A DNA stretch of 64,000 bases. It comes from Antedon mediterranea (lineage: Eukaryota > Echinodermata > Crinoidea > Comatulida > Antedonidae). A program made the translations under genes and the position numbers. Shown piece after piece: positions 40,201 to 43,200 of the stretch. Below the pieces are notes generated by a model, which was given only the letters and a program-made list of their open reading frames with translations, ran no database searches and was not told the origin of the DNA. Positions within the stretch are counted from its first letter, which is position 1, and each line of letters starts with the position of its first letter. The stretch lies in the NCBI RefSeq assembly GCF_964355755.1, contig NC_092675.1, positions 6,172,312 to 6,236,311 of the forward strand. The letters run 5' to 3'.

Positions 40201-43200
40201 GTTAGCAGAAGAATTGTATGAGCAGAAAAGTATTTTACTTATGGGACGTGGCTTCAATTATGCAACATGCCTAGAGGGCGCACTTGTAGGTCATTTCTGT
40301 ATTATAATTTATATTCAAATTAAACAAGTAAACATTATATAAATGATTATAAATTAAGAAAGTAATTGTAATAATAAAGTTTTTAGTTGTCTAATTTTTT
40401 CTGAATCATTAAAAAAATTGACTGGTGTATGTTGTTATGTAAGACTAAGAGCACAAGACAATTTAACACTAAACACTATATTCTGACTGAAATATTCTTT
40501 TAAAAGTCACCAACATACATATGACATACGACATACTTTATTGTCTCCGTAAGAAGAAATTACAGGAGCTTGCAAATCAACAACAAAGTTATACATGTAT
40601 AAATACAAATAAAAGATCAGACCACCCCACAAGTTACCTTTTATGATCTTCATTAAAGAAAACCATACCCTTAACTACAAAAGAATCACGGTATCTGTTG
40701 GTGGTAAAAGCAGGAACTCTCAAAAGTCCACTTCTGGGCATATAATTCCTGACAATCACATCATAGAGAGGATGGGTCTCATCAGTCATTATATGACAAA
40801 ACAAATTTGTAACCCTGACTCTAACAAGAGAGTCAACTGAAGGCAAACAGACACCAGTGATTCCGCTAACTTTTCTAATAAGACGTTCTATTAATTCTTT
40901 ATCTTTGTTAAAGGCAATTCCTCCCCATCACGTTAAGCAATAACTCCAAACCCCACAAATAACTGACGTATAAAAGATGGTGGTTATTTTGTTACAAACG
41001 CTACTAACACATAAATCTTAACTTGTATTTTATTAGAAAATTAAAGAGTTGACGTACCTACATTCTGAAGGAATTCTTGCAGGAGAGTTGAAGCATGGAC
41101 CATTAGCACTTGTAGACAAGGCTATGCCTGTTATCATGATTATTATGAAGGATTCCATGTATACGGTAACTACATATTGATTGTTATCAATAAATAAATC
41201 AATGGTGGCGTCAACTAGAAAGCATATGAACGCCATTAACAAAACAAGCAAAATGAAACAAACAAATATATCTTTCTGTATATATTGTTTTGTAGAAATA
41301 GTTCTGCTGTGTTATTTTTAAATTTTCAATTACAATAAATATTGACCAATAGGATAGTTGGTGTTTAACATGCTTGTCTTCCAATCCCAGGGTTCATGGT
41401 TCAATTCTGACCTAGTGCCAGGGTTCAATTCTGACCTAGTGCCAGGGTTCAATCCTGACCTAGTGCCAGGGTTCAATCCTGACCTAGTGCCAGGGTTCAA
41501 TCCTGACCTAGTGACATGGTTCAATCCTGACCTAGTGACACAGTTCAATCCTGACCTAGTGCCAGGGTTCAATCCTGACCTAGTGCCAGGGTTCAATGCT
41601 GACCAAGTGCCAGGGTTCAATCCTGACCTAGTGCCACGGTTCAATCCTGACCTAGTTCCAGGGTTCAATCCTGACCTAGTGCCAGGGTTCAATCCTGACC
41701 TAGTGCCAGGATTCAATCCTGACCTAGTGCCACGGTTCAATCCTGACCTAGTGCCCGGGTTCAATCTTGACCTAGTGCCCGGGTTCAATCTTGACCTAGT
41801 GCCAGGGTTCAATCCTGACCTAGTGTCAGGGTTGTAACTAAAGACTATTCACTCCCTAAGCCTCGAATAAGACTTAGCTTATAAGCAGAATAAAGTTTAT
41901 CCATCTTGTAATTGGCGAGTTGGGTGTGTTAGGATAAAAAGAGAAAAGAAATTATACTGTATGCTTGCTATCTTGAAGAAAATGTCCAACAATTCTGTCA
42001 ACACCCTTTACCCTATTGAGTTGAAGCCAGAAGATCAAACTCAATATGTTTTTTTTTATTCTTTAGAAATGTCAAAATGCACTCCATGAAGTGACTGCCA
42101 GAGGAGTAAGTATTTGTTTTATAATTTATATAAAGAGGCTTAGTTTATTTAAAATTATTTTTGTATATAAGCCACACAATAATAATAATGACGAAAAAGC
42201 TATTCTTCCAAGATGACAAATGCTTGAAGCGTGGTAGAAATACGAACACGTTATTCAAACAAGTTCTAGATAATGTTGGAATGGTCAGACAAGCCTTCAT
42301 TAACAACTCGAAGGCCTGCTTATTTTGAATCAGCATTTATTTATCATATGCCATCTAGAACACTCTGTCAGAACACCTTTTGTCTTAAGTAAATATATCT
42401 CTTTTTAATTGTAAATAAGATTGAAAATAATTGTTTTGCTTTTGTTTCTTGATTCGCAGTGTGCACCGATTTTGATCTGCCAAAAGGGTGATAAGGAATC
42501 ACAAAGCAAGGCCTCACGTGTGATTGAATTACCTGGCACCGTTGACTGTCTTCAGGGCATTCTTTGTGTCATTCCTCTTCAACTTCTTGCATTCCACACA
42601 GCTGTACTTAGAGGATATGATGTAAGCAATTTGTTTTGATTCATACAAACTTTTCAGTGTTTGCTCTGTAGAATTAAGGGTAACATGCATCCCAACTTTT
42701 TTGCTGCTTTAATTGTGGGTAAGGCTTACAACCAGGATTTCTTGCAGCATGGGCACCTTACTCCCTAAATAACCTTTTCTAAAGCTCTGTCTCCACTATC
42801 AAATGTGGCAAAAAATTGGAGTTGTGATAATGAAAATGATGATGTCATATCATTATTAAATTTGGGAATACCCCTACCATATTTGGGCACATCACACTTT
42901 TTTAGTCAAACTAGTTAGTGTAAACAAAGCTTAAGATTTAGTGAAAAATTGATGACAATACTCTACCCTTGGTATTAGTAGTACACATATGACACATATA
43001 GATACCTTGCAATTTTCCTCTCAGATGTCATGTCACTACCATATTTGGGCACATCATACTAGTTTGATAATGTAGACAGAGCTTTAGATAATAATAATAA
43101 TAGGGAGATTTCATCTAGGATGTTAACAAAAATGTCTGCTCGGCTAGCATGGAATATCCTACTAAAATTTGTATGGTGCTTGGTCGGCCTGCACTGCAAG

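Follow-up and report, generated by a model that had tools for sequence, protein, structure and literature searches.

The window analysed here is a stretch of 64,000 nucleotides of the Antedon mediterranea genome (contig NC_092675.1, positions 6,172,312 to 6,236,311 of the forward strand). It contains at least four copies of one SINE, one of which lies in an intron of a GFPT-like gene and harbors a tandem array. The relevant features are the following.

About 2171 to 2388, − strand: single-unit SINE copy (pattern match).
About 3175 to 3390, + strand: single-unit SINE copy, an exact match to the single-unit pattern (pattern match).
14712 to 14917, + strand: three-unit SINE copy (TRF places the units at 14746-14817).
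41040 to 41165, + strand: GFPT-like exon upstream of the array (PDB match).
41353 to 41397, + strand: SINE head left of the array, with an eroded 5' end (90% identity to the family consensus over 42 bases).
41398 to 41833, + strand: 18-unit array of the 24-base unit GGTTCAATCCTGACCTAGTGCCAG, with a B-box-like motif inside (TRF and unit splitting).
41834 to 41942 (right end approximate), + strand: SINE body and tail, following the array (89% identity to the family consensus over 103 bases).
42067 to 42105, + strand: following GFPT-like exon (splice sites and reading frame assigned by eye).

The best PDB match of the exon at 41040-41165 was glucosamine-fructose-6-phosphate aminotransferase 1 (E 4.7e-18). 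This match, together with the next exon identified by eye, supports the location of the array inside a GFPT intron, as proposed in the first-pass annotation. The intron is 901 bases long, the start of the 3' exon being read by eye, and the array occupies about half of it. The SINE and the GFPT-like gene are co-directional, both being on the + strand. The array was detected by TRF with a period of 24, 18.2 copies, 93% matches and 0% indels. Splitting of the array yielded 18 units of 24 bases each, with a mean divergence of 4.2% from the consensus GTTCAATCCTGACCTAGTGCCAGG. The units had been described as exact; they are indeed equal in length, but only six of the 18 are identical to the consensus. 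Similarity between neighbouring units exceeded that found after shuffling of their order (p = 0.0065). The graded series previously noted for the four SINE copies, with one, one, three, and 18 units of 24 bases, was recovered. Searching the window for GGTTCAATCC with at most one mismatch returned 24 matches for 2.78 expected, a number reached in none of 100 shuffles. A further match to GGTTCAATTC at 50554 was assigned by eye to a different sequence. We consider it likely that the array derives from an old insertion of a tRNA-related SINE, the inner 24-base segment of which expanded in place to form a minisatellite.

The window contains other repeats. A 16-base unit, unlike that of the SINE, is repeated 33 times in a minisatellite at 12262-12810 (TRF, 95% matches). 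TRF also detected arrays at 6945-7555 (unit of about 171-181 bases), 33573-34283 (about 121-154), and 53736-53987 (83 bases). A 21-base CATATCACTACCATATTTGGGCA-like motif forms short arrays on both strands, at 1244, 15479, 28968, 29827, and 46206 (TRF), and similar sequence adjoins the SINE loci L019, L037, and L133. This motif is perhaps a small inverted-repeat element.

The SINE family was characterized in the genome (354 Mb in 18 contigs, nearly all of it in 11 contigs of 22-41 Mb). The 28-base SINE head, searched with up to 3 mismatches, returned 536 + 543 = 1,079 matches, and the reversed head, used as a control under the same conditions, returned none in the genome. One hundred head-matched copies, 98 fetched and two in the window, were taken from the first places of the 1,079 on contigs C1-C8; they have the exact 28-base head and are therefore better preserved than average. 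The family consensus (about 219 bases after trimming) was built from 84 of these copies, all single-unit, after removal of nine longer forms and of seven copies whose 3' end differs. With the usual A- and B-box patterns, the consensus displays an A-like box, TAGCTTGGTGG, at position 15 (one mismatch; an exact but more loosely placed A match is found at 4) and a B-like box, GGTTCAATCC, at 59, with a tRNA-like A/B spacing. Alignment of the SINE head with the tRNA gene present in the window at 20642-20713 (Rfam, 47.4 bits) extended over 55 bases with a score of 31, which was reached by none of 1000 shuffles (largest score 29). ARAGORN reported the SINE head only below its default cut, an Rfam search with the copy located at 3.2 kb gave no tRNA match even at E 10, and RNA folding of the head was uninformative (z −1.58). 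No paper on this SINE family was found in the open-licence literature.

Long A-rich runs end most of the young copies inspected, consistent with an A-rich 3' tail. Target-site duplications were not in excess over mispaired flanks, either at 73 of 143 loci with both ends or at 22 of 24 young loci (L146 was omitted and L152 dropped out); dating of insertions by such duplications was therefore abandoned. Some LINE partners leave short or no target-site duplications. A young subfamily, CCCGGGTT...GTGCAGGGTT (L121-L124 and L141-L160), has many copies with few mutual differences, which suggests recent activity. Among the young copies, L123 and L145/L146 have duplicated 5' ends; L145 and L146 share the same flanks 2 kb apart and belong to one duplicated stretch. 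Eight copies (L005, L006, L029, L030, L033, L045, L048, and L076; seven found by script and L005 by eye) represent a near-identical element that has about the first 180 bases in common with the family and a different 3' end. No extra units were seen in these eight copies. In L047, the first part of the copy is followed by another tRNA-related SINE-like sequence with the B-box-like GGTTCAAGCCC and the motif CCTTGAGCAAG.

The frequency of amplification was estimated in two ways that do not depend on the choice of the consensus unit, in addition to the window itself. Among the 100 copies selected by their head alone, eight harbored, in the unit segment, tandem duplications 20 bases long or longer (L011, L018, L023, L032, L079, L114, and L116 by script, and L019 by eye), all overlapping positions 12-97 from the start of the head pattern. 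In L011 and L116, the duplicated units are 20-22 bases long and extend upstream of the 24-base unit. For the remaining duplications flagged by the script, whether inside the element or outside it, the period is 8-17 bases. L075, which had been set aside as a longer form, contains a palindromic insert and no tandem unit. The second estimate, a genome-wide count with exact anchors on both sides, which detects only copies retaining these anchors, identified 230 single-unit places, 14 two-unit places, and two with a half-unit offset; a fifteenth two-unit match, C2:34608177, contained an unrelated insertion and was discarded. One-unit losses were found at four places, all exactly 24 bases shorter, with a pattern allowing 7 lengths.

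At least three units were present at 21 loci among 160 fetched stretches and the window. The numbers of units were 55, 34, 30, 28, 18 (window), 13, 11, 10, 10, 9, 9 (or 8), 6, 5, 5, 5, 5, 4, 3, 3, 3, and 3, with at least five units at 16 loci and at least four at 17. Besides the window array, the long arrays include those at C4:8.51 Mb and C3:28.37 Mb. Most of these loci were picked with the consensus, so that their number and purity are biased; in particular, L081-L100, L120, and L130-L140 were found with consensus-unit patterns, and their agreement with the consensus is not evidence. The multi-unit loci inspected have a SINE tail after the array and most also have a SINE head, which is missing or mostly lost in L131, L135, and L138. 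A graded transition from SINE to minisatellite does exist in this genome and has occurred repeatedly. The earlier proposal of such a path agrees with the predominance of the single-unit state (230 places against 14 with two units) and with the SINE tail at the end of the inspected arrays.

What sets the limits of the amplified piece? In the single-unit consensus (84 copies), CCAGGGTT occurs twice with a spacing of exactly 24 bases, the length of the unit. The match extends by eye to two arms, CCAAGGTCCAGGGTT and, 24 bases further, CCTAGTGCCAGGGTT, which are equal at 12 of 15 positions, including the last eight. Two of the four loss junctions pass from the first to the second arm (CCAAG|TGCC and CCAAATGCC); one of the others falls inside the identical eight bases and one is unclear. 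Having only two clear hybrids among the four losses slightly lowers our confidence in expansion in place from this repeat. Gains comprised GACCTGG-type hybrids (4 of 14) and the simple form (10 of 14), and a third junction form, GACCTAGGTCCAGG, was found in L089, L130, and L086. The three forms read GTGCCAGGGTTCAATCC, GACCTGGTCCAGGG, and GACCTAGGTCCAGGG. An 8-base direct repeat is not rare in an element of about 200 bases (235 of 1000 shuffles do as well). The seed repeat may thus have arisen by chance; the arguments in its favour are limited to its spacing, which equals the unit length, and to the observed gains and losses. The imperfect 15-base direct repeat is probably the best explanation of the amplified piece. 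Duplications of 20-22 bases that extend upstream of this unit are found as well (L011 and L116).

Starting from what is observed, namely the arms, their spacing, one-unit gains and losses, their recurrence, variants private to single arrays and, in part, hybrid junctions, we infer a molecular step in which the two arms would mispair by replication slippage or unequal exchange, leading to the gain or loss of one 24-base unit. Template slippage of the reverse transcriptase at insertion would be an alternative route to the first change in unit number. Slippage and unequal exchange would be easier once two full 24-base copies are present, and at some loci growth would then continue unchecked, up to 10-55 units. 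Located between the arms, the box-B motif would be carried along.

Another direct repeat in the SINE with eight identical bases, TAGTTTAT, at a spacing of 28, served as a control. Genome-wide, no loss through this repeat was found beside 158 intact copies. Two longer forms were detected in the control region, neither of them through this repeat as judged by eye; one is a 25-base duplication through a 5-base repeat. Gains and losses through the repeat amounted to 18 of 248 for the seed and 0 of 158 for the control (Fisher p = 2e-4), a comparison that cannot separate pairing strength from box-B effects since the control repeat is AT-rich and devoid of a longer imperfect match. For duplications of any kind, the excess was modest, with 14 of 244 in the unit region versus 2 of 160 in the control region (p = 0.034). 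A hairpin was rejected as the cause of this difference, as single-strand DNA folding of the unit region (z −0.23) and of a three-unit stretch (z 0.10) was no better than that of shuffles. The control region folded better than shuffles in the same single-strand DNA test (z −2.42).

Several observations bear on whether arrays grew at their present sites. Comparison of the flanks of 43 multi-unit loci, not including the eight head-matched copies with longer forms, returned 15 matches, all of 171 bases or less and at variable offsets. These matches were read as other repeats and not as a common insertion site; the array loci looked like separate insertions, and segmental duplication of array loci was rejected on this basis. 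Among non-consensus units of 10 arrays, 105 identical pairs were found within arrays and 27 between arrays; the mean for within-array sharing after shuffling was 20.5, and none of 1000 shuffles reached 105. Six variant units were common to two arrays. Similarity of neighbouring units above chance was also detected in L087 and L091 and was not significant in six of nine arrays. The arrays of L081 (55 units) and L082 (30 units) diverge by only 0.4% and 0.6% from their own consensus, whereas the SINE tails of these loci differ from the family consensus by 12% and 16%. With nearly pure arrays next to diverged tails, these arrays look younger than their insertions, a contrast that suggests late growth in place.

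The first duplication may have a different timing from later growth. Two-unit copies also occur in the nearly mutation-free young subfamily (L121-L124); some first duplications may date from insertion or shortly thereafter, or may come from a source that was already duplicated. For nine older two-unit copies, divergence between the units was 6.3%, compared with 17.5% expected for duplication at birth; the expected value would be lower with a unit evolving more slowly than the tail, as suggested by 9.2% for the unit versus 17.2% for the tail. The two-unit comparison covered 13 of the 14 copies, all but C7:4643320. It is possible, though we would not favour it, that template slippage of the reverse transcriptase at insertion makes the first duplications and that DNA-level change merely lengthens them later. 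The presence of two units in young copies, the resemblance of the duplicated 5' ends of L123 and L145/L146 to template jumping, and the clearly diverged units of some old two-unit copies (L127, L128, and L129) argue for such an origin; against it, the units of L125 and L097 are identical over the 14 bases compared, although their tails are about 10% diverged. Unit number might instead be inherited and not gained in place, if a source SINE with at least two units had been copied. The same duplication is found at different sites in two young pairs, L121/L122 and L123/L124, and the young subfamily shows no clear deficit of two-unit copies (by eye on C1 to C4, two-unit versus single-unit copies were 1:23 among young and 5:77 among other copies). 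We nevertheless regard inheritance as unlikely. Most repeated variants are private to one array, unit numbers vary widely among loci, and the SINEs that carry arrays of about ten or more units (8 loci compared) show tail identities of 77-91% to the consensus. In addition, old copies display both main junction types, so that a shared duplication need not be inherited. The copies of the young subfamily differ too little from one another to show whether the pairs L121/L122 and L123/L124 stem from duplicated sources.

In a functional reading, the putative box-B arrays would be bound by TFIIIC and form either an ETC-like boundary or an obstacle within the intron, which would favour amplification. 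The consensus unit contains GGTTCAATCC, a good B-box match (10 of 10 positions to GGTTCRANYC and 10 of 11 to GGTTCRANYCC). The unit also contains an A-like match, TAGTGCCAGGG, with one mismatch, which in the arrays precedes later B-like motifs by 22 or 46 bases, a spacing from which Pol III-type starts within an array would be conceivable. TFIIIC-bound sites outside Pol III genes are documented in flies and mammals (PMC4226948). The A-like match says little, however, as a loose A pattern with one mismatch is found at five places in the consensus. The co-direction of the SINE and the gene weakens the idea of a transcriptional obstacle. In addition, the ends of the unit are already explained by the direct repeat; since they coincide with this flanking repeat, no box-B function is needed for the amplification of this piece. 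The first-pass annotation had equated the repeated part with the box-B core: the motif does lie inside the unit, the ends of which coincide with the direct repeat. We regard a role of TFIIIC as very improbable and take the array as presumably neutral. It would be just as far-fetched to view every insertion of this SINE as a latent minisatellite by virtue of its seed repeat, and the resulting arrays, with as many as 55 B-like boxes that might be paired with A-like motifs of adjacent units, as dispersed putative TFIIIC sinks or boundaries affecting host genes or transcription of the SINE. Expansion in place from the imperfect direct repeat remains our preferred explanation.

The closest known relatives of these arrays are the SINE-derived satellites (sSat) of squamates, described as tandem arrays that arose from a segment of a tRNA-related SINE and are bordered at an end by SINE sequence (PMC10702118). 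They occur at many loci, with unit numbers from a few to hundreds. In snakes, the 67-base unit spans the 3' portion of the head with its box B, and arrays reach hundreds of units (PMC10702118). The crinoid arrays likewise have SINE-derived tandem units from part of a tRNA-related SINE, with SINE ends, at many loci (at least four units at 17). They differ by their unit of 24 bases, compared with about 67-290 in squamates, by SINE sequence kept on both sides at most loci inspected, and by a likely seed repeat, no seed being named in the sections of PMC10702118 consulted. Squamate sSats are reported to prefer subtelomeres (PMC10702118), a preference that is not a defining feature of sSats; here, none of the 16 loci with at least five units lay in the outer 5% of a contig, a weak test since about 1.6 were expected. 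Short internal duplications of about 30 bases in SINEs have already been reported, according to the discussion of PMC10702118; from this one sentence, the short duplication is a shared property, and some loci here reach tens of units. With the ETC sites of PMC4226948, the candidate TFIIIC sites of these arrays have in common a B-box-like motif away from tRNA genes. The arrays are thus a new example of a known route from SINE to minisatellite. A single genome displays the passage from interspersed to tandem repeats, from unit loss through one, two, and three to tens of units, and the likely seed repeat, together with an internal control, makes the first step of minisatellite birth countable.
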